From positions 1,644,501 to 1,708,500 of the forward strand of contig NZ_CP045429.1 of assembly GCF_005886805.2 (NCBI RefSeq): DNA of 64,000 nt, given 5' to 3'. The position numbers were made by a program, and so were the translations under genes. This document shows, one piece after another, positions 29,986-46,116 of this stretch (its first letter is position 1; the number at the start of each line of letters is the position of its first letter). Under the pieces are notes generated by a model that did not search any database, was not told the DNA's origin, and saw only the letters and a list, made by a program, of their open reading frames with translations. This DNA comes from Pseudoalteromonas rubra. Its GTDB lineage: Bacteria > Pseudomonadota > Gammaproteobacteria > Enterobacterales > Alteromonadaceae.

Positions 29986-30306
29986 ATGAAACCACTTAAG
30001 CGCACCCGAGACATTACGCCTCTGCCTTCGCGCAATTTTAAAATTACCGTCGATGATCAATCTGTTGAGGCCTGTGAAGGGGAAACCGTGTTGTCGGTTT
30101 TACTTGCCGCCAACTATGCCAAAGTGATGGAAAACGACCGCAATGTTGCATCAGGTGCCTACTGTGGCATGGGGGTATGCCATTGTTGCCAGGTTAAGAT
30201 CAATGCCAAACACAAGCAACGCGCCTGCCAGACCTTAGTTAAGCCACACATGTCAGTTGAAACCCTGACCAACCGCTTCAAAGAAGAGGGGATCAAGCAT
30301 GACTAG
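29986..30306 (+). CDS. hcnA: Hydrogen cyanide synthase subunit HcnA (2Fe-2S)
   Basis: A 106-residue ferredoxin-like subunit of the membrane-associated glycine dehydrogenase that makes HCN and CO2 from glycine. The 2Fe-2S ligands are Cys60, Cys65, Cys68 and Cys81 in GAYCGMGVCHCC...RACQT. An N-terminal RNFKITVDDQ strand matches HcnA and related amino-acid dehydrogenase small subunits. It overlaps hcnB by 8 bases, so translation is coupled. Identity as HcnA rather than another small ferredoxin subunit rests on the unmistakable HcnC encoded two genes later. Confidence 0.9.
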   Translation: MKPLKRTRDITPLPSRNFKITVDDQSVEACEGETVLSVLLAANYAKVMENDRNVASGAYCGMGVCHCCQVKINAKHKQRACQTLVKPHMSVETLTNRFKEEGIKHD

Positions 30307-31687
30307 CCAGACGCACGACAAAGTGGTGATCGTCGGTGGCGGTCCTGCGGGGACTGCTGCGGCAGCTGAATTAGCATGTCATGGCTTAAAGTCAGTGATC
30401 ATTGACGAAGCACCTAAGCTGGGTGGGGTGATATATCGCGGGCCGCTGCGCAAGACGGATTCATTGCCGCACCTGGATGACAACCTGAAGCGCGCCATGA
30501 CGGCATTGCAAACCCGCTATCAGGCGCACCGAGAATCCATTGAAGTCAAAACGCAGACCCGGGTGCTTGGCCCGGAAGGCAGTAATCAACTTTTACTTAG
30601 TGATGACTCGGGATTGAGTCGTCAACCATATGGGCATCTGATCCTGGCAACCGGTTGTCACGAGCGCAGCGTTCCGTTTCCTGGCTGGCAGTTACCCGGC
30701 GTTATGTTATTGGGCGGTGTGCAGCTACAGCTTAAAAGTGGTCTGGTCAGACCGGGGCAGCGCATGGCCTTGGTGGGCACCGGGCCTTTATTACCTCTGG
30801 TCGCCTGCCAGTTGCATAAAGCCGGTGTTGATGTAGTTGGCGTGTATGAAGCCAGCCCATTTGCCAAGCTGGCAAAAGAGGCCGTTGCTTTGCTTAATAA
30901 GCCCAAGTTAACGCTGTCGGGCATGAGCATGATGAGTTACCTCAAAAAACACAAAATCCCGTTCAAATATGGTTGGGGAATTGTCAGTGCGCAGGGCGAG
31001 GAACAGCTTAGCAGTATTCATGTTGCGCCATACGATAGCCAGTGGCGACCTCAACGTGACCTGGCTGAGCAGGTGGCAGTCGATGCCATTGGGGTGGGGT
31101 ACGGATTCGTGGCACGGACCCAGCTTGCTATGTTACTGGGCCTGGAACACACCTATAGTAAAGTCAGTGGTTATGTGCCTGCACTGGATGAGTGGCATCA
31201 AAGCCAGAATCACAGTGCTTTTGTAGTGGGCGACAGTAATGGCTTGCTGGGGGCTGATGCTGCCATTTGTGAAGGTCAATTGGCGGCATTACGTCTGGCC
31301 TGGCAGTGTGGAAAGATCACAGAATCTGAGCTGTTCTCACGGGCTACAAAAGTTAACAACAAGCTGGCGCGGATTAAAAAATTCCGTTTTGGCTTTGACC
31401 GGTTCTCGGATCGTCAACCCGGCTTATTGTCTCTGGCGCAGCCACAGACCGTGGTTTGCCGCTGTGAGCAAGTACGCAAAGAGCAGCTGGATGAGGCCAT
31501 TGCGCAAGGCGTTAAAGACATCACGAGCCTGAAGATGCGAACCCGCATTGGTATGGGTGACTGCCAGGGGAAAACCTGTAGTTCCTACGCGCTGGACTAC
31601 CTGCATCAGGCAGGTCTGACAGAGAATATTGGCGTGATCAAACCACGTTTTCCCCTTGATCCTATCCCCTTTACCTTAATGGAATGA
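30299..31687 (+). CDS. hcnB: Hydrogen cyanide synthase subunit HcnB
   Basis: A 462-residue FAD-linked oxidoreductase subunit. The dinucleotide-binding fold is at the N-terminus (VVIVGGGPAGTAAAAEL), with a second nucleotide motif at about 165 (ALVGTGPLLPLVA) and FVVGDSNGLLGADAAICEGQLAAL near 310. The C-terminal BFD-like 2Fe-2S region has CRCEQV and later GDCQGKTCS. It passes electrons from glycine oxidation in the HcnABC complex. It is joined to hcnA by an 8-base overlap and to hcnC by ATGA. Confidence 0.93.
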   Translation: MTSQTHDKVVIVGGGPAGTAAAAELACHGLKSVIIDEAPKLGGVIYRGPLRKTDSLPHLDDNLKRAMTALQTRYQAHRESIEVKTQTRVLGPEGSNQLLLSDDSGLSRQPYGHLILATGCHERSVPFPGWQLPGVMLLGGVQLQLKSGLVRPGQRMALVGTGPLLPLVACQLHKAGVDVVGVYEASPFAKLAKEAVALLNKPKLTLSGMSMMSYLKKHKIPFKYGWGIVSAQGEEQLSSIHVAPYDSQWRPQRDLAEQVAVDAIGVGYGFVARTQLAMLLGLEHTYSKVSGYVPALDEWHQSQNHSAFVVGDSNGLLGADAAICEGQLAALRLAWQCGKITESELFSRATKVNNKLARIKKFRFGFDRFSDRQPGLLSLAQPQTVVCRCEQVRKEQLDEAIAQGVKDITSLKMRTRIGMGDCQGKTCSSYALDYLHQAGLTENIGVIKPRFPLDPIPFTLME

Positions 31688-32919
31688 ACACAATGAAAAA
31701 ATATGATGTTGTCATCGCTGGTGGCGGTGCAGTGGGTGCGGCGTGCGCATACTTTTTGAGTCGCGATACAGATTTAAAAATCGCATTAATTGATTTAAAA
31801 AAACCTGGCAATGCGTCGCGCGCGTCAGCCGGCGGGTTGTGGGCCATTGGTGAGTCGGTTGGTCTTGGATGCGGGGTTATTTTCTTTAAAACTCTTTCTA
31901 AATTGCACAGTGAGGCACAAGGTAAGGAAGTGCCGGTCATGCGTCCGCACCAGTTGCCGGATTGCTTTTTTGAGTTTGCTTTGACGTCTAACAACATGTA
32001 TCCGGCATTGCATCAGGAGATGCTGGAGAAGCACGATGTTGATTTCAAATTTGAGCGCACTGGGCTGAAATTTATCATGTACAACGAAGAAGACAGGTTG
32101 TACGCCGAGCAGATCACTCAGGGGATCCCTCACCTGGCCGATCAGGTACGCTGGCTGGACGCCGAGCAACTCAAAAAAGAAGAGCCTTATGTGACCGACG
32201 ATGCCATCGGTGCCATTGATTTTATTTGTGATCACCAGGTAAATCCGTATCGGCTGGTCGACGCTTATCTGGAAGGCGCACGTCAAAATGGGGTGTCTTT
32301 GTATCTGAATACTGAAGTCACCTCGGTGATCCGCAACGGCAATGTTGTGGAAGGGGTGAAAACGAGCGATGAAGTTTTTTTCTGCGATACCCTGATCAAT
32401 GCCTCCGGTGCCTGGGCCAACGAGTTATATCAGCAAGCCACTGGTCGTACTATGCCGGTGTATCCGGTGAAAGGACAAATCGTGCTGTCGGAGCGCATGC
32501 CAAAGATCATGAACGGCTGTATCAGTACCAGTGACTGTTACATTGCACAAAAGGACAACGGCGAAATCCTGATCGGTTCATCGACAGAAGAAAAAGGCTT
32601 TGATACCACCAATAGCCTGGACAAAATTCAGGAGCTGTCGCAGGGGGCGATGAAGTGTTTGCCGATATTAAAAGAGTCGAGCATCAAGCGTTGCTGGGCT
32701 GGGTTACGTCCGGGGACACCGGATGAGTTGCCAATCCTTGGTCCGGTCGAAGGGGTAGAAGGTTACCTTAATGCTTGTGGCCATTTCCGTACCGGTATTC
32801 TGACATCGGCTATCACGGGTCAGCTGATGACTGAACTGATTATGGGTAAAACACCGTCATTGGATCTGACGCCGTTTAGTGTCGAGCGCTTTGAAGAGGC
32901 GGAGCAAAAGGCTGGTTAA
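31684..32919 (+). CDS. hcnC: Hydrogen cyanide synthase subunit HcnC
   Basis: A 411-residue D-amino-acid-oxidase-type flavoprotein, the catalytic glycine-oxidising subunit of HCN synthase. It keeps long stretches identical to Pseudomonas HcnC as I remember it: GNASRASAGGLWAIGESVG, GLGCGVIFF, FKFERTGLKF, YPVKGQIVLSERMPK, CYIAQKDNGEILIGS, WAGLRPGTPDELPILGPV and the C-terminal CGHFRTGILTSAITG. The N-terminal FAD fold is YDVVIAGGGAVGAACAY. It starts by ATGA overlap with hcnB; a second ATG lies 9 bases on. Cyanide would act as a toxin toward grazers or competitors. Confidence 0.95.
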   Translation: MNTMKKYDVVIAGGGAVGAACAYFLSRDTDLKIALIDLKKPGNASRASAGGLWAIGESVGLGCGVIFFKTLSKLHSEAQGKEVPVMRPHQLPDCFFEFALTSNNMYPALHQEMLEKHDVDFKFERTGLKFIMYNEEDRLYAEQITQGIPHLADQVRWLDAEQLKKEEPYVTDDAIGAIDFICDHQVNPYRLVDAYLEGARQNGVSLYLNTEVTSVIRNGNVVEGVKTSDEVFFCDTLINASGAWANELYQQATGRTMPVYPVKGQIVLSERMPKIMNGCISTSDCYIAQKDNGEILIGSSTEEKGFDTTNSLDKIQELSQGAMKCLPILKESSIKRCWAGLRPGTPDELPILGPVEGVEGYLNACGHFRTGILTSAITGQLMTELIMGKTPSLDLTPFSVERFEEAEQKAG

Positions 32920-33080: not shown

Positions 33081-33097
33081 TTGTTATAATATATCAT
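33081..33097 (+). promoter_or_regulatory. Zur-like operator before TonB receptor
   Basis: TTGTTATAATATATCAT matches the gammaproteobacterial Zur core ATGTTATANTATAACAT at 14 of 16 defined positions. It sits 15 bases before the receptor start and contains a TATAAT -10-like hexamer, so bound Zur would block transcription. Confidence 0.6.
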
Positions 33098-33112
33098 AAT
33101 GAAGGACTGATA

Positions 33113-35236
33113 ATGAAACCCTTACACTCTGCGTGTCGTTTAAGTGTACTCTCTTTGTCTCTCGCTGCGGCGTTTTCCGTGTCTGCTGACAGTACTATTG
33201 AAAAAATTGAAGTAACCGGCGAGCGCCAGGCCTACCGTGGTGACTTTACACATTTGCAATCACCAGAATCTTTGTTCGAGTTCGACTCTGAATTAATTGA
33301 ACAAGCCGGTGTGACAGGATTAACTCAGGTATTGGATATGTCGGCGTCGGTCAGTCGCCAAAATAGCCTGGGTGGCCTGTGGGATAGCTTTGCGATCCGC
33401 GGCTTCTTCGGTGATGAGAATGTGCCCAGTGGTTATCTGGTTAATGGATTTAATGCGGGCCGTGGATTCTCTGGCCCTCGTGATATTTCGGGTATTGAGC
33501 GGGTTGAAGTGCTTAAGGGTCCAAAAGCGGCCTTGTTTGGCCGTGGTGAGCCGGGTGGCTCAATTAACCTGGTAACCAAAAAGCCGACTTTCCAGTCTTC
33601 CAGCGAATTTGAACTGACAGCGGGCAGCCGCGCCCATCGCCGCCTGGAAGGTGACGTGAATGCGGTGTTGTCTGAGTCGGTCGCTGGTCGCTTTATTGGC
33701 TTCTATCAGGAAGAAGACAGCTTCCGTGACACCATAGAAACACAAAAGCATGGCGTGATGGCATCATTCGTGTTCGACCAAAGTGCCGACTCAACCTGGC
33801 ATTATGACTTTGAGTATGCCGAGCAGGAAATCCCGTTTGACCGCGGTATCATCGCACCAAATGGCAACTTTGACTTTATGCCCATCGAGCGTTTCCTGGG
33901 CGAGCCGGGTGATGGCCCGACAACGACTATGGTACATGGCCATCAGCTTAACTGGTTGTACGACCTGAACAGTGACTGGCAGCTTAGCTCTGCACTGGCA
34001 TATAGACAAACTGAGCTGGACAGTCTGTCAAGCGATGCTGATATTGCGCCGTCCAGACAAAAGCTTTACTTAGATTTTCAGACCCTGACGCGTCAGCACA
34101 GACAGCGCGCTTATGATACCGACCAATATGTGGCACGGTTTGAATTGGCAGGGGATGTCACGACAGGCTCAATCAAGCACCACATCATCGTAGGTGTTGA
34201 CTATGACCGTTTTGAGTTTGACAGAGACTATCGGGTTGCCCGCGCACCAGCACTTAGCACCAACCCAACCGATGCACAGCTTTATGCCATCAATATTCAT
34301 CAGCCAGTGTATGGTCAGCATACACCACCGACGCCGACCCCGGTGATTGTGCGCCAGCAAAACCAATGGGCAACCGGTTTTTATATCCAGGATCAGATAG
34401 CGCTGACGGACGCATTTCAGGTGCGTATTGGCGGTCGTTTTGACTGGCTGAAACAAACCACAGACGACAAGATCAGAATGCAGAGCGCAGATCAGTCTGA
34501 GCAACACTTTAGTCCGCAGCTGGGTCTGGTCTATCAGTTCAGTGATAACTGGTCACTGTACTCAACCTATGGCGAAGGTTACCGTCTGAACTTTGGTACT
34601 GACTACAAAGGGGATGGCTTCGATCCGAACCAGAGTGAGTCAATTGAGTTCGGCAGTAAGTGGTCTCTGCTCGACAATAACCTCGATATCACGCTGGCCT
34701 ATTTTGACAGTGAGCAGACCAACATCATTGTTGCTGATATCAATAACCCAGGCTTTAGTGCTGCCATTGGTCAGGCTACAAGCGAGGGCATTGAGGTGGA
34801 CGTGGTCGGTCAGTTACCGGCAGATGCGCAGATCCAGTTCTCATTTACTCACCTGGATGCACAGGTTGATAAAGATTCCATTGATACCGGCCTGGGTGTT
34901 GCCATTAAAAAAGGCGACGACCTGGTAAACATCCCTGAGAATGCAGCCAGCATTCAGCTGAGCCAGCAATATTCGGTATTTGGTAATGCTTTGTCAGCGG
35001 GTGTGGGGGCTCAGTATGTGGATGAGCGACTGGGCCAGCGTGGTACTGATTTCTACCTGCCTTCCTACGTTACTGTGAACCTGTTTGCAGAGTATGCAAT
35101 CAACGATCGCTGGTCGGTAAAGGCGCAGGTACATAACGCCTTTGATCGCAAGCACTTCACCAACTCATATTCTCAGATGTGGGTGCAGCCGGGTGAGCCG
35201 CGTAAGGTACTAGTGTCGACCTCATATCAGTTCTAA
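33113..35236 (+). CDS. TonB-dependent siderophore/metallophore receptor
   Basis: A 707-residue outer-membrane receptor. A signal peptide of about 25 residues ends FSVSA. The plug domain follows (about 35-160) with TonB-box-like IEKIEVTGE, SFAIRGF, IERVEVLKGPKAALFGRGEPGGSINLVTKKP. A 22-strand barrel ends in the canonical Phe (VLVSTSYQF). The plug is of the siderophore-receptor type. The Zur-like box just upstream and the neighbouring nicotianamine-synthase-like operon suggest a zinc-metallophore ligand rather than ferric siderophore (inference). ATG 33113 has AAGGA ahead and begins the signal peptide; the frame is open from 33059. Confidence 0.88.
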   Translation: MKPLHSACRLSVLSLSLAAAFSVSADSTIEKIEVTGERQAYRGDFTHLQSPESLFEFDSELIEQAGVTGLTQVLDMSASVSRQNSLGGLWDSFAIRGFFGDENVPSGYLVNGFNAGRGFSGPRDISGIERVEVLKGPKAALFGRGEPGGSINLVTKKPTFQSSSEFELTAGSRAHRRLEGDVNAVLSESVAGRFIGFYQEEDSFRDTIETQKHGVMASFVFDQSADSTWHYDFEYAEQEIPFDRGIIAPNGNFDFMPIERFLGEPGDGPTTTMVHGHQLNWLYDLNSDWQLSSALAYRQTELDSLSSDADIAPSRQKLYLDFQTLTRQHRQRAYDTDQYVARFELAGDVTTGSIKHHIIVGVDYDRFEFDRDYRVARAPALSTNPTDAQLYAINIHQPVYGQHTPPTPTPVIVRQQNQWATGFYIQDQIALTDAFQVRIGGRFDWLKQTTDDKIRMQSADQSEQHFSPQLGLVYQFSDNWSLYSTYGEGYRLNFGTDYKGDGFDPNQSESIEFGSKWSLLDNNLDITLAYFDSEQTNIIVADINNPGFSAAIGQATSEGIEVDVVGQLPADAQIQFSFTHLDAQVDKDSIDTGLGVAIKKGDDLVNIPENAASIQLSQQYSVFGNALSAGVGAQYVDERLGQRGTDFYLPSYVTVNLFAEYAINDRWSVKAQVHNAFDRKHFTNSYSQMWVQPGEPRKVLVSTSYQF

Positions 35237-35267
35237 TTTTGCCCACAGACCTTTTGAGTCGTTTAAT

Positions 35268-35305
35268 GTGTCCCGGTGCTCCCTGCCTGGGCACATTTTT
35301 TTTTT
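35268..35305 (+). terminator. Terminator of TonB receptor gene
   Basis: An imperfect stem, GTGTCCCGG (35268-35276) and CCTGGGCAC (35286-35294), followed by ten Ts. Confidence 0.75.
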
Positions 35306-35334
35306 AGAATTCTGCTTTTTTAAAGCCTGAATAG

Positions 35335-35365
35335 AAAAAGCCCGGCACTGATTGCCGGGCTTTTT
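35335..35365. terminator. Bidirectional terminator between TonB receptor and RND genes
   Basis: A perfect 13-bp stem, AAAAAGCCCGGCA and TGCCGGGCTTTTT, with a 5-base loop. It is flanked by A and T runs, so it works on both strands for the convergent genes. Confidence 0.92.
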
Positions 35366-35369
35366 GATG

Positions 35370-38300
35370 CTAGGCCAACAGACGCCTGATTGGTCTCAGC
35401 AAGGAGCCAGACACCCCTTTAATATCTTCGAGCATCACATACATACAAGGCACCATAATCAGTGTTACCCCGGTTGCAAACAACACTGAAAAGCTCAATG
35501 ATATGGCCGTTGGGATAACAAATTGCGCCTGCAGGCTCGACTCAAACATAATGGGTACCAGCCCCAAAAAGGTGGTCAGTGAGGTGAGCAAGATGGCCCG
35601 GAAGCGACTAATACCAGCGCGGATAACCGAAGTTTTGATATCCAGGCCTGCTGATCTGTGGCGGTTGATCACATCCGTCATGATCAGGGAGTCATTGATC
35701 ACCACTCCAGCTGCCGCAACAATACCAAAGACTGACATCATGCTCAGGCTATAGCCAAGCAGATAATGTCCCCACAGTGCGCCGACCACGGAAAAGGGGA
35801 TCACTGACATGACCAGGACAGGTTGCAGATAGTTTTGCAGCGGCAGTGCGAGCAAACAATAGACGACCAGTAACCCAACCAGACCAAAAACCAGTACCTG
35901 ACTTTGTTCTTGTCGCTGTGCTTGCAGTGTGACGCCGGGCTGAGTAGTTAACCCTGGGTGGGCCTGAGTCAGTTCGCTCAGCAGCTGTGACTCTATGTGT
36001 TCGGTTACGTGGGCGATACTTGTGTATTGTTCGTCTACATTGGCACTGATGGTAGCGACCTGATAGCCCTGCTCACGACTGATGCTCGAAAAGCCGGGTA
36101 CTTCAATGGTACGCGCCACATCGCCAAAGAACACCTGCTCGCCATTTGGCAAAGTGATCAGCGTGTGGTTGAGGGCACTCAATTGCTGACGGTCTGCCTG
36201 TGCACCTCGCACCTTGAAAACGACTTCCTGACCTTCACGCATGACGCGCTGCACTTCAAGCCCATAGAATCGCGCCCCCACTTGTCGGGTAACGTCTTTT
36301 GCGCTCAGGTTAAGCTGATACGCCAGTGGCTTAAGTTGGATCTGATACTCAGTCTGTGCACTATCAAGCGAGGAGTAGACGCTGTGAACACCGCTGATCC
36401 TATTCAGTTTGTCGATCATTGCCCGGCTGGCCTGATAAAGGGTTTCAGCATCGCTGGCAAACAGGCGGTACTCCAGATCCGTTTTCTCAGCAATGTCGAT
36501 CACATCAGATTCTATGGTCAGCTTTTTTACACCAGGTATATCAGGTAACTGTTCCCGCCAACGTCTGGCCAGTTCAAAGGTATCAAACGGGCGCTCTGCT
36601 TCTGGCACCAGAGGAACGACTACTTCGGCCTCCGTCAGGTGATCGATGCGGGTATACATCACGTCCATCATAGGCTTACCGGTCTGGGTTCGGATATCTT
36701 GCTCAACACGATTAATCAGGGTTTCTATTTGCTCAACGGCGGCCAGGGTGTGTGCTTCAGACACACTGTGATCCATCTGAATATTAATTGACGGATAATC
36801 ATGAGGTACTTTTGGAACGGGCGTAAAGCGCAATAAACCACTGATGATGAGACAAATTGCCAGAACCAGCAAACACATAAATCCAACGATGACCGCATAG
36901 CGATAGTGAATACAGTGCTTGAGTAACGGGGCATAATGGTTGTTCAGCAGTTGTTGAAGTTTGCTGTTAAAGCGATTGCGCCAGTGCTCAGCTGGCTTGG
37001 GCGGTAAACGCGTTGCAGCCAGGTGTGCAGGCAAGATGAGCTTAGATTCAATTAAGCTGAAAAACAGGCATAAAATACACACACCAGCGATGGCTATGAA
37101 CTGTCCTGAGTTAGGACCGCTGCTGAACATAAAGGGCATAAAGACGGCGATGGTGGTCAGTACGCCGAAGGTGGCCGGCATAGCCACTTTTTGTGCTCCT
37201 CTTATCACCTGCTGTGGAGAGTGGCCATTTGACTCAACTTCCTCGCAGACGCTTTCGCCTATTACTATGGCGTCGTCCACAACAATACCCAGCACCATGA
37301 TAAAAGCAAATAAGGACACCAGATTCATGGTGATCCCGAATAGCGGCATCAGCCAGAAAGCACCCAGCATGGAAACCGGCAGGCCCAGCATCACCCAGAT
37401 AGCAAGTCGGGTACGCAAAAATACGGCGAGCACGATAAACACCAGAATGGCACCCTGAGCGAGGTTTTCCAGCATCATATTGAGGCGACCCTGCAAGTAG
37501 AAGGTCACATCAACAAACTCGTAGATGTTGATGTGCTCAGGCAGTGCCTGACTTTTGTAGTCAACATAGGCTTTAATCTGAGCAACGACATCGGTCAGTG
37601 ACTGTTCTTTGGCCGCCAGAACCATGATGTACACTGCCTGTTCACCATTAAAGCGCCCGGCATCCAGGGTTTCACGGAATCCATCTTTGATGGTTGCGAT
37701 ATCGCGCAATTGTACAGTTTCACCTAAAGGGCCAGTGATAACGGGTGTGCTGGCCAGGGCTGAGCCCTGATAGCCTCGTTGTGCCAGTCTGAGGTAGATG
37801 TTACCGCGCGCGGTTTTTATTTCACCAGCTGACACATTATCGGCCTGTGTCTGAATTGCACGCACTACATCTGACAGGCTGAGATTGTATTCTCGTAATC
37901 GAAGTGGTGACAGCTCAATCGCGACTTCATAATCGGGAATGGCCGAGAGATCGACGTGTGCAATCCCCTCAAGTTGCAGTAACTCTTCTTTTAATTCATT
38001 TCCGAGCTTTCTCAGTTCGAGTGGGTTATCCGGACCGGATAACACAACGCTCAGCGCGCGCTGACGCTGTGCGCGCTCAACAATTTGCAGTGGCTCCATG
38101 GCGGGTGGAAAGGTGGCAATGGCATCCAGCTTCATTTTGATTTCATCAAGACGATGGGCTAGAACCTGATCGTGTTCCAGCTCTATTTCAACTCGCCCAC
38201 GCGACGGCGTTGCCTGGCTGGTGAGGCGTTTAATGCCGACCTGAGGTTTGAGTGCCTGTTCAATCTTAAGCAGTATATTTTCTTCTACTTCTTTGACCGA

Positions 38301-38474
38301 TGCGCCCAGCTCGGTGGCAGTGACAATAATTTTATTGTTGTCGGAGACAGGGAAGGTTTGTCTCTGGATCCCCTGATAGCTCAGCAAACCCATGCAAACG
38401 ATAAACAGCATCAGCAGGTTCGCGGCGACCGGGTGATGAACAAAATAGCCGATCAGTTTACTTGGCTGGCTCAT
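35370..38474 (-). CDS. RND efflux pump inner-membrane permease
   Basis: A 1034-residue AcrB/HAE-type permease with two repeats of six membrane segments and large periplasmic loops. The proton-relay block in the fourth segment is intact (LGIVVDDAIVIGESV), and the second-half counterpart reads GVVINDSLIMTDVINRH. The N-terminal FVHHPVAANLLMLF start is typical of the heterotrimeric-like HAE subgroup found in marine gammaproteobacteria. It starts by a 4-base overlap with the stop of the adaptor gene. No outer-membrane TolC gene lies nearby. Substrate unknown; by location it could export a metallophore or protect from one. Confidence 0.9.
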   Translation of the reverse strand: MSQPSKLIGYFVHHPVAANLLMLFIVCMGLLSYQGIQRQTFPVSDNNKIIVTATELGASVKEVEENILLKIEQALKPQVGIKRLTSQATPSRGRVEIELEHDQVLAHRLDEIKMKLDAIATFPPAMEPLQIVERAQRQRALSVVLSGPDNPLELRKLGNELKEELLQLEGIAHVDLSAIPDYEVAIELSPLRLREYNLSLSDVVRAIQTQADNVSAGEIKTARGNIYLRLAQRGYQGSALASTPVITGPLGETVQLRDIATIKDGFRETLDAGRFNGEQAVYIMVLAAKEQSLTDVVAQIKAYVDYKSQALPEHINIYEFVDVTFYLQGRLNMMLENLAQGAILVFIVLAVFLRTRLAIWVMLGLPVSMLGAFWLMPLFGITMNLVSLFAFIMVLGIVVDDAIVIGESVCEEVESNGHSPQQVIRGAQKVAMPATFGVLTTIAVFMPFMFSSGPNSGQFIAIAGVCILCLFFSLIESKLILPAHLAATRLPPKPAEHWRNRFNSKLQQLLNNHYAPLLKHCIHYRYAVIVGFMCLLVLAICLIISGLLRFTPVPKVPHDYPSINIQMDHSVSEAHTLAAVEQIETLINRVEQDIRTQTGKPMMDVMYTRIDHLTEAEVVVPLVPEAERPFDTFELARRWREQLPDIPGVKKLTIESDVIDIAEKTDLEYRLFASDAETLYQASRAMIDKLNRISGVHSVYSSLDSAQTEYQIQLKPLAYQLNLSAKDVTRQVGARFYGLEVQRVMREGQEVVFKVRGAQADRQQLSALNHTLITLPNGEQVFFGDVARTIEVPGFSSISREQGYQVATISANVDEQYTSIAHVTEHIESQLLSELTQAHPGLTTQPGVTLQAQRQEQSQVLVFGLVGLLVVYCLLALPLQNYLQPVLVMSVIPFSVVGALWGHYLLGYSLSMMSVFGIVAAAGVVINDSLIMTDVINRHRSAGLDIKTSVIRAGISRFRAILLTSLTTFLGLVPIMFESSLQAQFVIPTAISLSFSVLFATGVTLIMVPCMYVMLEDIKGVSGSLLRPIRRLLA

Positions 38475-39643
38475 TGCTTGTCTCCTTTAACAGCCAGCTG
38501 GGTATGTGGGGCAGAGGCGCGCACTTGCATACCCGTTTGCGGATAATCAGGTAGTTGAGTGACCAGCTGATAATCTGAGTGGGGTGGTGCACTGATCAGC
38601 ACACTGTTGTGCTCTCTGCGCAGCACGTTAGCGGAATATTTCAGTAGCTTTTGCTCCGGGCTTAGTAACCAGAGCGTGTCGTTTTTAACCCATTCCTGAG
38701 GTACTTTCAGGACGTTTTTGAGTGTGATACCGGCTATTTCAGCCTGTAAAAACTGCCCAAAGTGTACGGCAGACAAAGTGCTGTGCAGTGCATAGGGGTC
38801 GTCTATTCTGATCACATAGTAGGCCATTCGGGTGGTATCGCTGAGCAGGCCGGTATGGCGCGTGAGTGTGCCGGTGCGCTGGTTGTTTCCAGCTGCTATC
38901 CTGACATCTGCTGCTGGCAGGGGTGGCAAAAAAGGCTGGTCAAACTGAGCGACGGGCACATGCAGTTCACCATAACTTAGGTTGACCAGCTGGCCAAGTG
39001 GCTGACCTGCCTGAATAACCTGACCAAGGCCGGTATCGCGTTTTGCAACCAATGCATCGTAAGGGGCGTAGTAGTGAGTACGTGCCAGGTTCTTTTGGGC
39101 CTGTGCCAATTCTGCTTCCGCTGCTTTTAGGTGCGCCCGGGCGCTGGCAACCTGAGGTTTTCTGAGTGCAAGGTCGGTGACATGTGCAGTGGCAGCCCAT
39201 TCTTTTTTTGCCACATCAGCCAATGCAATTTGCTCAGACAAACGAGCCTGCGCCAGTGCAAGCTCTGCCTGTTTATTGAGTAACTGAGTTTGATAATCAA
39301 ATGGGTCAAGCCTGGCCAGCACGTCCCCTTTTTTTATAATCCCACCTTCAATGAATCCGGCGTTGAGCCAGGCAATTTTGCCCGGGAGTTCAAAGGCAAT
39401 GTCTGTTTGCTCGGCTGGTTTTAAGACCCCTGACAAGTTTAACGTGGTTTGATGATCTGTGGGTATCAAGGCTGTACTCGATACTTTTGGCAGCACGGCT
39501 TGCTGAACCTGATCCTCTTTATGGGGTTTAGCGAGCGTAACTAAAGCAACACAGGCTGAACTGCCCATAAACAGGACCAGGAGCAGGGCAACAGAACGAT
39601 GCTTAAGTAGATGATAAAAAGACTTATTTTTATTTGTGTCCAT
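38471..39643 (-). CDS. RND efflux membrane-fusion (adaptor) protein
   Basis: A 390-residue HlyD/AcrA-type adaptor. One N-terminal membrane anchor (about 15-35), then the lipoyl and coiled-coil hairpin with LSGVLKPAEQTDIAFELPGKI, ARLDPFDYQTQLLNKQAELALAQARL and YYAPYDALVAKRDTGLGQVIQAGQPLGQLV. A beta-barrel and membrane-proximal domain follow. It links the permease to a TolC-type outer-membrane channel. ATG 39643 was chosen because AGGGA lies 8 bases ahead; the frame is open to 39664. It is divergent from the nicotianamine-synthase-like operon across a 166-base control region with palindromes. Confidence 0.9.
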   Translation of the reverse strand: MDTNKNKSFYHLLKHRSVALLLVLFMGSSACVALVTLAKPHKEDQVQQAVLPKVSSTALIPTDHQTTLNLSGVLKPAEQTDIAFELPGKIAWLNAGFIEGGIIKKGDVLARLDPFDYQTQLLNKQAELALAQARLSEQIALADVAKKEWAATAHVTDLALRKPQVASARAHLKAAEAELAQAQKNLARTHYYAPYDALVAKRDTGLGQVIQAGQPLGQLVNLSYGELHVPVAQFDQPFLPPLPAADVRIAAGNNQRTGTLTRHTGLLSDTTRMAYYVIRIDDPYALHSTLSAVHFGQFLQAEIAGITLKNVLKVPQEWVKNDTLWLLSPEQKLLKYSANVLRREHNSVLISAPPHSDYQLVTQLPDYPQTGMQVRASAPHTQLAVKGDKQ

Positions 39644-39660
39644 GGTAATTTCCCTGCTTG

Positions 39661-39720
39661 TCACTTAACTTTCGTCGTAAATTAATTGTTTCGTAATTTT
39701 ATTAAGTGACTCACTTAACT
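39661..39720. promoter_or_regulatory. Palindromic operator of RND operon
   Basis: A perfect palindrome TTAAGTGA-C-TCACTTAA lies at 39702-39718. Its right half, TCACTTAACT, recurs as a direct repeat at 39661-39670, exactly 50 bases away, just upstream of the adaptor start. Dyad sites of this size usually bind TetR- or MarR-type repressors, but no such gene is in the vicinity. Confidence 0.55.
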
Positions 39721-39763
39721 AAAAATTGTTGAATAAAGTGGTTTACACATAAATAACCCATGA

Positions 39764-39782
39764 GTTATGTTATAACATAAAA
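39764..39782 (+). promoter_or_regulatory. Zur-like operator before nicotianamine-synthase-like operon
   Basis: It contains the perfect 16-bp palindrome TTATGTTATAACATAA and the 13-mer GTTATGTTATAAC (39764-39776), which recurs before the ABC operon. Read against the Zur core ATGTTATANTATAACAT it matches 14 of 16 positions (39767-39783 register). It also resembles the shorter alphaproteobacterial Zur palindrome. It lies 28-46 bases before the start codon. Confidence 0.6.
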
Positions 39783-39809
39783 TCGGAACAGTACAGCAGT
39801 GACTTACTT

Positions 39810-40631
39810 ATGACTATCGCGAATCACGTAGGGATCCACGCCTCGCAAATTGTGGACGTTTATGAACAAATTCATAGCATGGAAACGCTGACCATCAACG
39901 CCCAAACCATGGCCGTCTTTGATCGTTTTCTGGGTTTACTATCCAATGAACACGGCAGTGAGTTTGCTGAGCAGGTTCTGGCACAAGCCAAAATTAAGGC
40001 TATTAAACCTCAGATCCAGCACTTGTTTAGCCTGGCTTCCAGTATGTACGAGCGACACTGGGCGGAGCGCATTGTTAACAGCGATGCACCTGAGCAGGTA
40101 CAGCGTGAGGAGTATCCGTACTTCAAGCACTATCAACGCGCCACGGGTCTGGAAATTAACGCCATTAATTCGCTGGCGGATGAGCCGGTAAAACGGGTCC
40201 TGATGGTGGGTTCCGGTGCATTACCACTGACTTCTATGGCTTTGTATAACGCAGGGTTACAGGTTGATAACCTTGATATTCAGCAGGATGATCTGTTGCT
40301 TGGTAAGCAAGTCTGCGGCGCGTTGTCGGCTGATAATCAGATGGACTTTATCCACAATGATATCTGTGAACAGGCAGATCTGGCCCAGTACGATGTGATC
40401 TGGCTCGCCGCCTTGGTCGGAGATGCGCAGCTCAAAGATAAAATTATTGCGCACTTATATGAGCAAATGCGCCCAGGGGCGCAACTGGTGGTCCGCACTG
40501 CTTTTAACCTGCGCACCTTGTTATATCCGAGTGTAGATGAGGCCGGGCTGGCACCATTTCAGCTGAAACTGAAGATCCAGACCTACGCCGATAACTTTCA
40601 TTCTATTTTGATTGCACACAAACCGGTTTAG
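39810..40631 (+). CDS. Nicotianamine synthase-like (metallophore) enzyme
   Basis: A 273-residue protein of the nicotianamine synthase/CntL family, which transfers aminobutyrate from S-adenosylmethionine to build metal chelators such as nicotianamine or staphylopine. Seen: the helical N-terminal region YEQIHSMETLTINAQT, the substrate-side block YPYFKHYQRATGLEINAI (about 102-119), and the SAM fold VKRVLMVGSGALPLTSMAL (about 127-145). NLDIQQD, YDVIWLAALVG (about 194-204) and the terminal RTAFNLRTLLYP follow. It is the first gene of a three-gene operon with an exporter 5 bases downstream. No histidine racemase or opine dehydrogenase is present, so the product may be nicotianamine-like or novel. 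The ribosome site is weak; the start fits the family. Confidence 0.8.
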   Translation: MTIANHVGIHASQIVDVYEQIHSMETLTINAQTMAVFDRFLGLLSNEHGSEFAEQVLAQAKIKAIKPQIQHLFSLASSMYERHWAERIVNSDAPEQVQREEYPYFKHYQRATGLEINAINSLADEPVKRVLMVGSGALPLTSMALYNAGLQVDNLDIQQDDLLLGKQVCGALSADNQMDFIHNDICEQADLAQYDVIWLAALVGDAQLKDKIIAHLYEQMRPGAQLVVRTAFNLRTLLYPSVDEAGLAPFQLKLKIQTYADNFHSILIAHKPV

Positions 40632-40636
40632 CTGAT

Positions 40637-41902
40637 ATGTCGATAGTTACCTCTTATCTGAGGCTCAGCGCGGAATACCGCTGGATGCTCATCGCAGCCT
40701 TTGTGTTTAATCTTGGTTTTTACATGCTTATCCCATTTTTAGCGGGTTACCTTAAACAAGACTTGCTGCTGAGCGCCACCCTGGTTGGACTGGTTTTGGG
40801 TGTGCGCTCTTTTTGCCAGCAAGGATTGTTTTTGGTTGGCGGTCTGCTGGCCGACTTGTTTGGGGTGAAGAAGCTGATAGTGATCGGGTGTTTACTTCGG
40901 GCACTTGGATTTTGCCTGTTTCTGTTCTCTCAGATCACAGAAGTGCTGTTCTTAGCGGCTTTTCTGACCGGGTTTGCTGGTGCCTTGTTTACGCCTGCTG
41001 CACAGTCTTATTTTTCTAAACAAACAGAGCTGAGTCGTGCGCAAATGTTTGCGCTGGTAGGCGTGGCCAGAAATGGCGGTGAGTTACTGGGTCCGGTGTG
41101 CGGCTTATTGCTTTTGAGTGTCAGCTTTGACGTGTTATGTGTGGTGTCGGCGTTACCTTTCGCGGTGTTTGCGTTACTGTTTACCGTGCTGTTGCCGGGT
41201 AAACAGGCTAAAACGAGCAATGCGTCGGTAAAGGAAACCTCAAAAGAAGGCGGCGTATCGGCCATGATTGCAGGTGTGCTGGGCAACCGCACATTCATCA
41301 CTTTTTCGCTGATTATGTCGGGCTACTTTATGTTGATTAATCAGATCTCATTTGCTATCCCGTTACATATCGTCAATCAATCAGGTGCACCCGGAGATGT
41401 CGCCTGGGTACTGACCTTGTGTGCACTTATCTCTATTTGTTTTCAATTTCCGGTCACGCGTCTGTGCGAGCGTTTTCTGTCTCCTGATCAGTGGATCAGT
41501 ATCGGCATAGCCCTGATGGGGCTGTCTTTCGCCACCTTGATCCCGACCTGGCCCTACCAGGGCGGTGTATTGTATTACCTGCCAATGAGCCTGCTTGCTG
41601 TCCTGTTTACGCTTGGCACTATGGTGAGCTTTCCTTTTATCATGAGCCAGATTTCGGTGCTGGCAAAGGATAAGTCGGTTGCCACACACTACGGATTTTT
41701 CTATTTGTTTGCCGGAGTCGGATTGATAGCAGGCAGCGCTGTGGTGGGAGTGGCATTCGATTATGCCAGCTTAAGTGATGATCTGGCCTGGTATTGCCTG
41801 GTCGTCATAGGCTTAGGGACTGCCATATGCAACACACTGTTTATGTCGACACGCGATGTCCATTCCCAAATTCAAACAACCAGCCCAACCACATCAAAGT
41901 AA
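40637..41902 (+). CDS. MFS transporter, putative metallophore exporter
   Basis: A 421-residue major facilitator with about 12 membrane segments and a charged central loop (KQAKTSNASVKETSKEGG, about 190-207). The MFS loop motif after segment 2 reads GGLLADLFGVKKL. It starts 5 bases after the nicotianamine-synthase-like gene and is followed 9 bases later by the hotdog protein. In staphylopine, pseudopaline and related loci an MFS or EamA exporter sits in the same place and secretes the metallophore, so this role is inferred from context. Confidence 0.8.
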   Translation: MSIVTSYLRLSAEYRWMLIAAFVFNLGFYMLIPFLAGYLKQDLLLSATLVGLVLGVRSFCQQGLFLVGGLLADLFGVKKLIVIGCLLRALGFCLFLFSQITEVLFLAAFLTGFAGALFTPAAQSYFSKQTELSRAQMFALVGVARNGGELLGPVCGLLLLSVSFDVLCVVSALPFAVFALLFTVLLPGKQAKTSNASVKETSKEGGVSAMIAGVLGNRTFITFSLIMSGYFMLINQISFAIPLHIVNQSGAPGDVAWVLTLCALISICFQFPVTRLCERFLSPDQWISIGIALMGLSFATLIPTWPYQGGVLYYLPMSLLAVLFTLGTMVSFPFIMSQISVLAKDKSVATHYGFFYLFAGVGLIAGSAVVGVAFDYASLSDDLAWYCLVVIGLGTAICNTLFMSTRDVHSQIQTTSPTTSK

Positions 41903-41911
41903 GGATTAACC

Positions 41912-42364
41912 ATGATTCAACTTACTCAAGCGCAGCAACGAGCCTATATGTCAGACTATCTCGAAAATGGCTGGCGTGAGGAGCGTATGTCGTTTAGTTC
42001 CGTCTCTTTAGAGCCCGGTTATATTGACGGTCGCATTAATGTTGAGCATTTTCAAATGCCCGGAGATGGCCGTTTTCATTTCAGTGCGCAAAGTGCCATG
42101 ATCTGGATCTCTCAGCTTGGCATTATTTACGGCTGTTGGGACAACCAGCTGACCGAAAAAGTGGGGGAAGTCTACCTCAGAGATCTCGACATTAAATTCA
42201 AGCGCACTATCAATACAACCGAAGAGGTTCGCTTTGAAGGCTTCTTCCCTAAGCACTGTAAAAAGCGTTTGTCTGATAATCTCGTGTATTACAAGAATGG
42301 TCAGATCCACGTTGAAGGCGGCGCTTTTACTGGGACTGCGAGCTTTTTGGTACCAATAGGTTAA
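41912..42364 (+). CDS. Hotdog-fold protein, possibly FcoT-like thioesterase
   Basis: A 150-residue protein with the pattern of a single hotdog domain: a long central helix (FSAQSAMIWISQLGIIYGC, about 60-78) followed by beta strands YLRDLDIKFKRTI, EEVRFEGFF and GQIHVEGGAFTGTASFLV. It resembles FabZ/FcoT-type acyl thioesterases or dehydratases. FcoT itself works in mycobacterial isonitrile metallophore synthesis, which is a suggestive but weak parallel. Third gene of the operon. It could act on an acyl group of the metallophore. Family assignment is tentative. Confidence 0.55.
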   Translation: MIQLTQAQQRAYMSDYLENGWREERMSFSSVSLEPGYIDGRINVEHFQMPGDGRFHFSAQSAMIWISQLGIIYGCWDNQLTEKVGEVYLRDLDIKFKRTINTTEEVRFEGFFPKHCKKRLSDNLVYYKNGQIHVEGGAFTGTASFLVPIG

Positions 42365-42406
42365 TACCTCAGGGAAATAAAAACTGTTCCTATTTAGTTA
42401 ATTGGT

Positions 42407-42419
42407 GTTATGTTATAAC
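42407..42419 (+). promoter_or_regulatory. Zur-like half-operator before ABC operon
   Basis: The 13-mer GTTATGTTATAAC is identical to the one at 39764-39776 before the nicotianamine-synthase-like gene. It has an internal GTTAT/ATAAC dyad and lies about 110 bases upstream of the ABC ATPase start. It matches the Zur core less fully (about 12 of 16). Confidence 0.5.
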
Positions 42420-42527
42420 TAAACGTGACGTTGATTACGTCTTACCAAACCGCCCATGCTTAGTGTTCAGGTCTTTATCTAGACAACACGGCGTGCGCGG
42501 TTTTTATTGTATCAGGGAGTACTATTT

Positions 42528-43250
42528 GTGTTAGAAGCCATACAGTTAACCAAATCATTTGCAGATAAACAGGTGATCAGCGAACTGAGCTTTAAAGTCG
42601 AGCAGGGCGAGATAATGTGTCTGCTGGGTGCCAATGGCGCGGGGAAAAGCACCACGCTGAATATCTTTCTCAATTTTTTACAGCCTGACAGTGGTCAGGC
42701 ATTGATCGATTCAGTGGATGTGCATCAGGGAGCCAGTTGTAAAGATAAGCTGGTGTACTTGCCTGAGCAGGTTAATTTGTATCAGGAATTCAATGCCATT
42801 GATAACCTGAAGTATCTGGCGAGCCTGTCGGGACTGTCCGTTAATGAGGCACAGATCCATGCGGCGCTCGATGAAACCGGGCTGGAACAAAATGCCCGTA
42901 AACAGTCGTTAAAAAACTACTCAAAAGGCATGCGGCAAAAGGTTGGTATCGCCTTTGCGATTATGCGCCAGGCCAAAGTGTTACTGCTGGACGAGCCGAC
43001 ATCCGGACTGGATCCCAGTGCGACGCTGGAATTTATCCGCATTATCGAGCGACTGGCAAAAAAGGGCGCTGCTATCTTGATGGTGACACACGATTTTTAC
43101 TGCGCGCATACACTGGCCGACAAAATCGGCATTATGGATAAAGGCAAACTGCTGACCCTGCTGGATAACAACAAGTTGCCGCTGAGCAGCCTGGAAACCA
43201 CCTATCACGAACTTATTTCAGGGAAAACGGCGATACGTGCAGCCAGCTAA
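42528..43250 (+). CDS. ABC transporter ATP-binding protein
   Basis: A 240-residue ATPase. Walker A GANGAGKST (about residue 36), Q-loop region YLPEQVNLY, signature YSKGMRQK, Walker B VLLLDEPTSGLDP and switch His in VTHDF. The CcmA/NatA type works with ABC-2 permeases, and two such genes follow. GTG 42528 was chosen with GGGAG 9 bases ahead; the frame opens with a TTG at 42507. It forms an operon with the two permeases and probably shares the Zur-like control of the metallophore genes. Confidence 0.9.
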   Translation: MLEAIQLTKSFADKQVISELSFKVEQGEIMCLLGANGAGKSTTLNIFLNFLQPDSGQALIDSVDVHQGASCKDKLVYLPEQVNLYQEFNAIDNLKYLASLSGLSVNEAQIHAALDETGLEQNARKQSLKNYSKGMRQKVGIAFAIMRQAKVLLLDEPTSGLDPSATLEFIRIIERLAKKGAAILMVTHDFYCAHTLADKIGIMDKGKLLTLLDNNKLPLSSLETTYHELISGKTAIRAAS

Positions 43251-43289
43251 TGCTGCAACGTCGATGTTTAAACAGGAATTGTCTTATCT

Positions 43290-44729
43290 ATGAATAATAA
43301 AATAATGCAGATCTGTCGCCATGAATTGGCCAGTAAACGCAAAAGTCCCAGCCTGTGGCTGCTCTTTTTGATGATCCAGTTATTACTGGCGATTGCCTTA
43401 TTTACTGGCTGGCAGCAATACCAACACAGCGTGCATACCCAAACTAAAGCGCAGGAAATTGTCGAGCAACAATGGAATGCACAACCAGACAGGCACCCTC
43501 ATCGGGTGGCGCATTTTGGTCACTTTGCGTTCCGTCCTCCCAGTGCGCTTAGCTTTTTTGATCTGGGTGTGAATGCCTGGGTGGGTGACAGTATCTTTTT
43601 GGAGGCGCATAAACAAAACAGCGCCAATTTTGCCAACGATCAGGATGGCGGCACCTTGTTACGGTTTTCCGAGCTCAGTAGTGCCAACATTTTGCTGATC
43701 ATCTGGCCACTGCTGATTATTGCGCTGGGGTTTGCCAGCGTCAGTGGAGAGCAAAAAAGTGGCACGCTCAGACAGCTTATGTCTATGGGCGTGTCGTTTC
43801 GTGAGTTGATCACCGGTAAAAGCCTTAGCTACCTGTTTGTATCTGTGGTGTTTATCTTACCTGTGTTTGTTCTGGCTCTGGGCCTTGCCGCCGGTACCGG
43901 CGCTCAGTTTTCGGCAGAAGCACCACTCAGGCTGTTGCTGTTATTTGGGGCTTACCTGCTATATTGCCTGTTCTGGATCGCAGTAACCCTGTTGATTTCA
44001 AGCCTGGTGAAAGCCCCTAAGCAAGCGCTCATACTGCTGACGTCAATCTGGTTTATTCTGACCATATTGATGCCGCGTATGCTGGCGGAATTTGCCCATC
44101 ATCAGTATCCACATCAAAAACGCAATGACTTTGATCTGGCCATTAAGCTGGACAACCGTAAAGTCGGAGACAGTCACAACCCGGACGACCCCTACTTCAG
44201 TAAATTCCGCGAAGAAACCCTGAAAAAGTATGGCGTATCTTCAGTCGAGGAGTTACCGGTTAACTACAAAGGGTTGGTGATGCAGGAAGGTGAAAAGCTC
44301 AATGCCGAGATTTACAAGAAGCATTATCAGCAGCAAGTCGCACAATTTGACGCGCAACGCCAGTTTGTCAGTCAGTTTTATTGGATCAATCCCTATTTGT
44401 TTGTGCGCGATTTTTCAATGGCATTGACCCGGACAGATACCCGACACTTTTTGGATTTTGAGCAGCAAGCTGAAGCGCACCGATACGCGCGTATTCAAAA
44501 ATTAAATAAGTTACACACTCATGAGATCCATCATCACGATGACAGAGCACAGCGGGTTGATAAATCCTATTGGCAGGAGTTTGATGCGTTTCATTACACC
44601 TTGCCGAAGCTGAGCTGGTCATTGAGCGCGTTTTCTCTGGCCTGGGCTTTGCCGCTGCTGGCGGTTATTGCCCTGTTTATTTTCCTGAACTCAAACGGGA
44701 TGCAGAGGAGGATCTATGCTGCTGTTTAA
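43290..44729 (+). CDS. ABC-2 permease with DUF3526-type periplasmic domain
   Basis: A 479-residue permease. One N-terminal membrane segment, then a periplasmic stretch with the DUF3526 signature (HRVAHFGHFAFRPPSALSFFDLGVNAWVG and FLEAHKQN). Five or so further segments follow, then a second large soluble loop (about 265-425) and a final segment. The motif SGEQKSGTLRQLMSMG is the usual ABC-2 coupling helix. It overlaps the next permease gene by 14 bases. Such permease pairs are often found beside TonB receptors; their substrates are unknown. Confidence 0.82.
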   Translation: MNNKIMQICRHELASKRKSPSLWLLFLMIQLLLAIALFTGWQQYQHSVHTQTKAQEIVEQQWNAQPDRHPHRVAHFGHFAFRPPSALSFFDLGVNAWVGDSIFLEAHKQNSANFANDQDGGTLLRFSELSSANILLIIWPLLIIALGFASVSGEQKSGTLRQLMSMGVSFRELITGKSLSYLFVSVVFILPVFVLALGLAAGTGAQFSAEAPLRLLLLFGAYLLYCLFWIAVTLLISSLVKAPKQALILLTSIWFILTILMPRMLAEFAHHQYPHQKRNDFDLAIKLDNRKVGDSHNPDDPYFSKFREETLKKYGVSSVEELPVNYKGLVMQEGEKLNAEIYKKHYQQQVAQFDAQRQFVSQFYWINPYLFVRDFSMALTRTDTRHFLDFEQQAEAHRYARIQKLNKLHTHEIHHHDDRAQRVDKSYWQEFDAFHYTLPKLSWSLSAFSLAWALPLLAVIALFIFLNSNGMQRRIYAAV

Positions 44730-46074
44730 ACTCGAATGCAAGCGTTTGTTTGCTGGCACCATTAACAAACTGGTTTTGGTGTTATTTATCATTTCGGGGG
44801 TGTTTGCCATCTACCAGGGAGCACTTGGTTATAAGTCGGTACGCATCGACCAGTATAAATCTATGGTGGTGTTTCAAAAAGAGCGGGAACATGTTAACAG
44901 CCGTGAAACGCTGCCCGCTGCGGGATCTTTGGCGTACTATGCCAGTGCCCCGACTGAGTGGAAGTTGAGCCCCTGGGCCGCTTTGTTTGTAGGCGAGACC
45001 CCGTCGTCTATGGTGGCCACGAAAATTCGCGCAACGGCATTGCAAAGCCAGATTTTCAATCGTGAGATTGTCAATCCGGCTCAGCAACGGGCAGGAGGCT
45101 TGGATCTGGGCTTTGTGCTGGTTTATTTTCTGCCTCTGGTGATAGGCATATTAACGGTGACTTTGATCTCAGACGAGCAACATGCGGGCCGCTGGCGATT
45201 GCTTAACGCGCTGCCTAACAGCGCATTTGGGCTACTTGCCAAGCAGATTGCGCTGCGCTTTATGGTTATCTGGTTGCTGGTGGTTACCTTGCTACTCAGC
45301 GCTGCACTGATATTGTCTTTGCCGTTTGATGGCTTGTTCTGGATAGTGCTGGGGGCGACCAGTTTGTATATGGTGTTCTGGTTTGCACTGGCAACTTTAA
45401 TCATGAGTTTTGGTAAAAACAGTGTGGTGAATAGTCTGGCTTATCTGAGTAGCTGGGTGGTACTGGCGCTGCTGATCCCCGGGGCTGTGCACTTGTATTT
45501 GTCTGGTCAGTACCAAAGCGATGCGCCACTAGAGATCACACTGCAACAGCGCATGACACTCAACGATGGCTGGGACAAGGACAAGCAAGCCACGCTGGAC
45601 GAATTTCTGACGCACGAAACACCGTGGCAGAATACCGCGCCTCTGGGCGAGGCATTCGACTGGAAATGGTATTATGCGCAGCAGCATATGAGCGATCTGG
45701 CGGTGCAGACTCTTGTTGAAGAGCATATCCAGAATAATCAGGCTCGCCAGGCCCGGTTGCAAACACTGAGTGTGTTGTCTCCGGCTTTGTTCTTTCAGCT
45801 TTCGCTGAATGAACTGGCCCATACCAGTAGCGGCTATCAGCTGAAGTACCGGCAACAGGTGGCTGACTACCACCGTGCCATGCGTCATTTTTTCTATGAC
45901 TTTATGTTTTTTGATAAGCCAGTGACACGTCAAGATGTGGAAGATTTTCCACTGTTTAAAGCGCAGGCGATGGAAGCAGCCAGTGGCCTGTGGAAATTGC
46001 TGATCAGCGCATTATTCGTGCTGGCTATTTCTGCCTTGTCGATCGTCAGGATCCGACAGCTAAAACCGCTTTAA
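44716..46074 (+). CDS. ABC-2 type permease, second subunit
   Basis: A 452-residue permease paralogous to the upstream gene, with N-terminal membrane segment, periplasmic loop, a membrane core from about 135-265 and a long soluble loop (about 270-415) before a last segment. The coupling motif reads DEQHAGRWRLLNALP. It starts inside the previous gene (14-base overlap), so the two are coupled and should form a heterodimer with the ATPase. Last gene of the operon, followed by a hairpin terminator. Confidence 0.8.
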   Translation: MLLFKLECKRLFAGTINKLVLVLFIISGVFAIYQGALGYKSVRIDQYKSMVVFQKEREHVNSRETLPAAGSLAYYASAPTEWKLSPWAALFVGETPSSMVATKIRATALQSQIFNREIVNPAQQRAGGLDLGFVLVYFLPLVIGILTVTLISDEQHAGRWRLLNALPNSAFGLLAKQIALRFMVIWLLVVTLLLSAALILSLPFDGLFWIVLGATSLYMVFWFALATLIMSFGKNSVVNSLAYLSSWVVLALLIPGAVHLYLSGQYQSDAPLEITLQQRMTLNDGWDKDKQATLDEFLTHETPWQNTAPLGEAFDWKWYYAQQHMSDLAVQTLVEEHIQNNQARQARLQTLSVLSPALFFQLSLNELAHTSSGYQLKYRQQVADYHRAMRHFFYDFMFFDKPVTRQDVEDFPLFKAQAMEAASGLWKLLISALFVLAISALSIVRIRQLKPL

Positions 46075-46087
46075 CCCTCCTCAAATC

Positions 46088-46116
46088 ATACGGGCGGTAT
46101 TCGCCCGTATTTACTT
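46088..46116 (+). terminator. Terminator of ABC operon
   Basis: A perfect 9-bp stem, ATACGGGCG (46088-46096) and CGCCCGTAT (46102-46110), with a 5-base loop and a T-rich tail TTACTTTT. Confidence 0.75.

Follow-up and report, generated by a model that had tools for sequence, protein, structure and literature searches.

How does Pseudoalteromonas obtain zinc? The uptake route in this genus is an open question, because seawater is zinc-poor and ZnuA is nearly absent, being detected in just 3 of 108 Pseudoalteromonas genomes. A candidate answer lies in a gene cluster of Pseudoalteromonas rubra (assembly GCF_005886805.2; 5.94 Mb, two contigs), located at 33.1 to 46.1 kb of the 64-kb stretch of DNA analyzed here (contig NZ_CP045429.1, positions 1,644,501 to 1,708,500; hereafter the window, with positions counted from its first letter). 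The cluster comprises three transcription units, encoding a TonB-dependent receptor; a nicotianamine-synthase-like enzyme (NAS), a major facilitator superfamily (MFS) protein and a small hotdog-fold protein (HOT); and an ABC ATPase with two DUF3526-containing permeases, together with a divergent gene pair for a resistance-nodulation-division (RND) pump and its adaptor. Considering its gene set, its conservation and the predicted Zur-type sites before all three units, we judge it likely that the cluster is a Zur-repressed zincophore system, whose product would be made, exported and recaptured. No earlier description of the cluster was seen among the papers listed by a search of the open-access literature; published work is cited by PMC number, and the statements drawn from it refer to excerpts of those papers.

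Zur-type sites at three promoters of a conserved cluster

An initial annotation, made from the DNA letters, had proposed related AT-rich dyads in three upstream regions, and all of them are present (features of the cluster lie on the forward strand unless stated otherwise). The predicted operator of the receptor gene, TTGTTATAATATATCAT at 33081 to 33097, contains TATAAT, has one mismatch to the Zur-type pattern TGTTATANTATAACA, agrees with the Zur core given in that annotation at 14 of 16 positions, as had been claimed, and ends 15 bp 5′ of the likely ATG (33113). The 13-mer GTTATGTTATAAC indeed occurs identically before the NAS operon (39764 to 39776; ATG at 39810) and the ABC operon (42407 to 42419; likely GTG at 42528), with one further genomic copy on contig 2. 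The predicted operators at these two places span 39763 to 39777, with a perfect 16-bp palindrome, TTATGTTATAACATAA, at 39765 to 39780, and 42406 to 42420, respectively. Moreover, the Zur-type operator of the NAS operon overlaps its predicted promoter, a TTTACA-18-TATGTT pair at 39742 to 39771 whose second hexamer lies inside the dyad, just as the receptor dyad holds TATAAT; promoter-like matches overall were not enriched (17 versus 14.7 in shuffles). Zur operators overlapping the −10 region are known in Caulobacter and Pseudomonas (PMC4176598, PMC10393844).

Across the 5.94-Mb genome, 12 places matched TGTTATANTATAACA with at most one mismatch, 11 of them outside the window, against 1.3 expected under an order-2 Markov model of the window, and 4 matches were perfect where about none was expected. 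Several of the outside sites stand before genes that a Zur regulon would be expected to hold, namely those for type B L31, for DksA and a ZigA-like GTPase, for a MerC-family protein beside a COG0523 GTPase, for dihydroorotase and an M3 peptidase, for an AztD-like protein and for another TonB receptor. A first weight matrix of 21 bp was trained on seven outside sites flanking genes with a zinc link, while L005, L006, L011, and L015 were omitted for want of a clear zinc link adjoining them. With this own-genome motif, a check that the initial annotation had called for, the three sites came out on top of the window: those of the receptor, NAS and ABC units scored 21.7, 19.0, and 14.7 bits and ranked 1, 2, and 4 in 64 kb, rank 3 (16.0 bits) going to the NAS site read in an overlapping register and the next place reaching 12.9 bits, with 0.22 places of ≥14 bits expected by chance. 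A matrix built from all 11 outside sites left the order unchanged (23.4, 19.4, and 17.8 bits; next place, 10.3 bits).

The arrangement recurs in related loci, of which 16 were obtained by a protein search with NAS of GTDB species genomes (15 from Pseudoalteromonas and one from an Exilibacterium assembly); these are mutually related and do not amount to 16 independent tests. Receptor, NAS, MFS, HOT and the three ABC genes occur together in all 16 loci, and the RND and adaptor genes in 15, as well as in both divergent loci, L066 and L067. The single system of receptor, synthase, MFS, hotdog and ABC proteins that had been proposed at the outset is supported, with the amendment that the omitted RND and adaptor pair (35370 to 39664) belongs to it too. 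Of the 48 promoters, 38 carry a site within two mismatches and all carry one within three. In the 330,155 bp of these loci, all 48 matches within two mismatches (overlapping registers counted apart; 1.7 expected) fall within the 12,480 bp taken up by the promoters of the receptor, NAS and ABC units; within three mismatches there are 78 matches, 10 of them outside the three promoter classes. TTTACA is kept at 18 bp before TATGTT, whose bases are in the dyad, in 15 of 16 NAS promoters, and in L043 the receptor gene has moved to the opposite end and been inverted, still with its Zur-type site.

The genome encodes two FUR-family proteins, one Zur-like and the other Fur. Fur was considered in place of Zur and rejected: the dyads match the 19-mer Fur consensus at 10, 8, and 9 of 19 positions, and 195 places in the window reach 11. 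In addition, a second, non-Zur palindrome, TTAAGTGACTCACTTAA, lies between the adaptor and NAS genes (39702 to 39718); it is poorly kept in relatives and is perhaps the operator of the RND pair. Elsewhere in the genome, two Zur-type sites 24 bp apart precede the AztD-like gene (C1:4280431-4280469; L078:4432-4470), which is followed two genes later by a TonB receptor and has a synthase-like gene of 1464 residues on its other side, and a perfect Zur-type site lies 5′ of an alkaline-phosphatase-like gene (C1:2235098; L076:3599).

A nicotianamine-synthase-like enzyme and its partners

By its score (Pfam NAS, 141.5 bits; cut-off, 27.1) and its predicted catalytic Glu and Tyr, NAS (39810 to 40631) is a member of the nicotianamine synthase family PF03059, to which the archaeal thermonicotianamine synthase (PDB 3FPE, 3O31) and plant NAS also belong. 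With a profile of 31 relatives, archaeal NAS scored higher (83.7 bits) than CntL did (47.3 bits), and the single protein scored 35.6 bits against the staphylopine synthase CntL model NF033601, below its cut-off of 350. In the profile, Glu81 and Tyr108 are aligned with the archaeal residues Glu81 and Tyr107, a plain search placing Tyr108 one position off; Glu81 is conserved in 30 and Tyr108 in all of the 31 sequences. We take the essential residues of Arabidopsis NAS1 to be the archaeal Glu81 and Tyr107 by number. The corresponding catalytic residues are essential in that plant enzyme, which also needs Glu73 and the VGMD motif to make nicotianamine (PMC10248798). Judged by spacing, with no plant sequence aligned, the enzyme studied here seems to differ at both features. 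Four residues before the catalytic Glu it has Ser77, a position occupied by Ser in 25, Ala in 1, and Glu in 5 of the 31 sequences (the five distant ones), and in place of VGMD it has VG-D, with one residue fewer. Because these two features of the plant enzyme seem to be missing, the product is probably not nicotianamine but an NAS-like compound built from another starter.

Directly after NAS comes the gene for the MFS protein (40637 to 41902; Pfam MFS_1, 129.9 bits), a proposed inner-membrane exporter, and a second export step is proposed for the RND permease (35370 to 38474, reverse strand; Pfam ACR_tran, 503 bits) with its periplasmic adaptor (38471 to 39664, reverse strand; NCBIfam RND_mfp, 115.8 bits; cut-off, 94.9). 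Such two-step export parallels that by CntI and MexAB-OprM (PMC7438024, PMC10393844), since pseudopaline leaves Pseudomonas aeruginosa via an inner-membrane exporter and MexAB-OprM (PMC10393844). The likeness extends to the cnt/zrm zincophore loci (staphylopine, pseudopaline, yersinopine, and bacillopaline), the shared features being an NAS-family enzyme, an exporter, a TonB receptor and Zur control, as described for P. aeruginosa (PMC6103462). The cluster differs from them, however, in having an ABC-2/DUF3526 transporter instead of an Opp or FecCD one, an RND pump of its own, HOT and an archaeal-like NAS.

According to a published definition, an opine-like zincophore cluster has NAS directly 5′ of an opine dehydrogenase, with an importer and an MFS, EamA or MATE efflux protein within six genes (PMC7438024). 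Here, an MFS gene adjoins NAS, and among the six genes on each flank of NAS no Staph_opine_DH and no Opp- or FecCD-type importer was found, the sole ABC transporter being of the ABC-2/DUF3526 type. The initial annotation had distinguished the set from cnt and pseudopaline loci by its lack of an opine dehydrogenase, which holds at the locus; genome-wide, the Staph_opine_DH model matched none of the 108 genus genomes, yet it matched no control genome either, so that this wider comparison has no positive control. Since two defining features, the opine dehydrogenase and the usual importer, are not there, we do not file the cluster as a cnt/zrm member; it would work like these systems, as a probably Zur-controlled metallophore cluster whose metal is probably zinc.

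The third gene of the operon, for HOT (41912 to 42364), encodes a protein better conserved across the 16 loci than any other in the cluster. No convincing sequence match was obtained for it in Pfam, NCBIfam or PDB, nor any PADLOC family match: the best PDB match, ATP synthase gamma, had an E value of 0.036 and was dismissed, and the Pfam matches to Bromo_MP (19 of 25 members; best E value, 0.0014) and DUF1806 (7 of 25) were taken as chance. Its AlphaFold2 model (pLDDT 93), in turn, has a predicted fold like FabZ, SAV606 and Rv0098, which HOT would share with SAV606/CmiS1 and FcoT (Rv0098), hotdog proteins of beta-amino-acid and isonitrile pathways. Among 395 genomes of the family, HOT was found in at least 6, all of this genus, with candidates scored in part for some genomes. 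A plasmid search with HOT gave no match, and one with NAS gave two distant archaeal records.

Distribution, gene loss and the ABC-2 transporter

The ABC operon encodes an ATPase (42528 to 43250; Pfam ABC_tran, 108.5 bits; GTG start codon picked by eye), permease 1 (43290 to 44729) and permease 2 (44716 to 46074; Pfam DUF3526, 81 bits). It had been counted at the outset as part of a zinc-scavenging system, and its conservation in the cluster agrees with this; as to type, it is an ABC-2 transporter whose permease fold is closest to NosY and not a classical zinc importer, so that transport might run in either direction. After the first long helix of permease 1, at residues 71 to 107 (43500 to 43610), His71, His75, Asp91, Glu105 and His107 are invariant in 27 of 27 aligned DUF3526 permeases and form a possible extracytoplasmic metal site. 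Compared with NosY of the copper-site assembly transporter NosDFY, the permeases are ∼230 residues longer, including DUF3526; moreover, the cluster has two different permeases and no NosD in the operon.

The DUF3526 model matches 1 of 14 control genomes, that of Caulobacter. In this bacterium, the Zur-repressed ABC-2 transporter ZnuGHI adjoins the TonB receptor ZnuK (PMC4176598). The cluster has the ZnuGHI-type layout of an ATPase with two ABC-2 permeases, a Zur-type site and a TonB receptor in the locus, a likeness of layout. It differs in content, as the Zur-repressed set listed for Caulobacter includes neither an NAS nor an MFS exporter or a hotdog gene (PMC4176598). The ZnuA and ABC-3 models, which match 11 and 13 of the 14 control genomes, gave no match in the P. 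rubra genome.

Among the 108 genomes, NAS occurs in 23, HOT in 24, and DUF3526 in 59, and all 23 NAS genomes also have HOT and DUF3526. The single genome with HOT and without NAS, G074, has a broken HOT gene. Its receptor is intact (66% identity over 680 residues; L074:5694-9180) and preceded by a Zur-type site with one mismatch, while the genome has no NAS match, and in the 16-kb stretch read the adaptor is missing and MFS and RND are reduced to short ends. Because NAS, MFS, HOT and RND were lost together and the receptor was kept, they can be grouped as a producing half and a using half, which, coming from a single event in one genome, is a hint. It suggests that the receptor-only genome cheats on a shared zinc-binding good. 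Of two divergent NAS genomes, G103 has all parts together, and in G036 the genes for NAS, RND, HOT and the receptor sit at the ends of contigs, apart from the ABC operon. In G103, a second TonB receptor, besides the metallophore receptor, lies inside the ABC operon between ATPase and permeases (L067:11622-17270).

DUF3526 occurs without NAS in 36 of the 59 genomes, and the loci were read in 17. An upstream Zur-type site is present within one mismatch in 11 of the 17 and within two in 14, and a receptor-like gene adjoins the ABC genes in 13. In view of these Zur-boxed loci, the ABC unit looks like a separate zinc module to which metallophore genes were added and not like a part of synthesis. 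DUF3526 is absent from 49 of the 108 genomes, where zinc import is unexplained by the families searched.

The receptor itself (33113 to 35236; NCBIfam TonB-siderophor, 266.7 bits; cut-off, 223.5) is the proposed metallophore receptor. One relative, at 62%, is labelled Colwellia asteriadis, a name that is not among the named rows of the NAS match list. Terminator-like stem-loops lie 3′ of the receptor gene (35276 to 35294) and of the ABC operon (46088 to 46110; a 10-pair stem followed by a T-rich tail). Directly upstream of the cluster, at 29986 to 32919, is an operon of 2Fe-2S, FAD and DAO-type oxidoreductases, which we place outside it because the DAO gene is present in just 5 of the 16 related loci.

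Proposed mechanism and alternatives

In line with the initial annotation, we infer that the locus serves a zinc metallophore. With zinc present, Zur on the promoter-overlapping dyads would keep the three transcription units off. When zinc is short, NAS would transfer 2-aminobutyrate from S-adenosylmethionine to an amino acid, and HOT might add or trim a group from an acyl thioester, in place of the opine dehydrogenase step of cnt systems. Two steps would then lead out of the cell, the MFS protein delivering the product into the periplasm and the RND pump, working with the adaptor and an assumed TolC-type channel, expelling it; the TonB receptor would return the metal complex. The ABC-2 transporter, using ATP, may take zinc or the complex onward from the periplasm. 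A narrower version is rather unlikely to hold in all its parts and is offered tentatively: a new class of nicotianamine-type zincophore whose synthesis needs no opine dehydrogenase, in which NAS builds the aminobutyrate arm and HOT completes the molecule with an acyl thioester (perhaps joining an amine and an unsaturated thioester, as in SAV606-like reactions), and zinc is taken over in the periplasm by a NosY-like ABC-2 transporter that bears an extracytoplasmic His/Asp/Glu site.

Several observations weigh against the proposed zincophore system. The solved receptors nearest to that of the cluster, e.g., FoxA, FhuA and the pyochelin receptor, carry ferric siderophores; the Zur-like protein, at 164.1 bits, falls just below the curated NCBIfam Zur cut-off of 167; RND and adaptor are missing from L040 and hence are not essential to the unit; and 3 of the 17 DUF3526 loci without NAS have no site within two mismatches. 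ABC-2 transporters of NosY-type fold are mostly exporters or extractors, so import by the ABC-2 unit is not a safe guess. As for the operators, both the NAS site and the ABC site show two mismatches, and this class shows no genome-wide excess (33 places, overlapping registers counted apart, versus 31 expected), so they are unremarkable as single hits; within three mismatches, a reversed control pattern is even commoner (338 versus 188 matches genome-wide). If the three dyads were AT-rich coincidences, the genes would not be zinc-controlled at all. We hold this to be extremely improbable, considering the ranks that the sites take in the window with a motif trained outside it and their conservation at the three promoters of the 16 loci, with none elsewhere there within two mismatches. 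The weight of evidence for the NAS and ABC sites thus lies in joint position and conservation and not in single-site significance.

A Zur-controlled metallophore might instead have nickel, cobalt, copper or iron as its main cargo, as the receptor relatives just named and the binding of several metals by nicotianamine-type ligands would allow. This is improbable, because the three units carry Zur-type and not Fur-type sites, neither a ZnuA nor an ABC-3 match that could serve zinc was found in the genome, and the DUF3526 operons without NAS that were read are mostly Zur-boxed. Still less probable is that the NAS product is kept as a zinc buffer inside the cell or in the periplasm, with MFS and RND exporting something else. 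Nicotianamine does act intracellularly. In plants it serves metal homeostasis (PMC10248798). Against such a buffer, NAS adjoins MFS in 16 of 16 loci, with RND and adaptor in 15, and G074 lost NAS together with most of MFS and RND and kept the receptor, as expected of a secreted, shareable product. A further alternative concerns the ABC-2 unit alone, which might export the metallophore or strip zinc in the periplasm by mechanical work, by analogy with NosDFY, which serves copper-site assembly. Taken together, these two roles are less likely than a zinc-uptake role, with an appreciable chance nevertheless; of the two, export of the metallophore is the unlikely one, since more than half of the DUF3526 genomes lack NAS and most of their loci read are Zur-boxed.

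The zincophore system, our preferred reading, offers a testable answer to zinc uptake for about a fifth of the genus (the 23 of 108 genomes with NAS), in which ZnuA is so rare. HOT would represent a small protein family of no known function that is tied to NAS. The cluster would also combine a metallophore whose synthesis apparently dispenses with the customary last enzyme and a kind of ABC transporter whose role in zinc is based, in the work cited here, on its regulation in Caulobacter.

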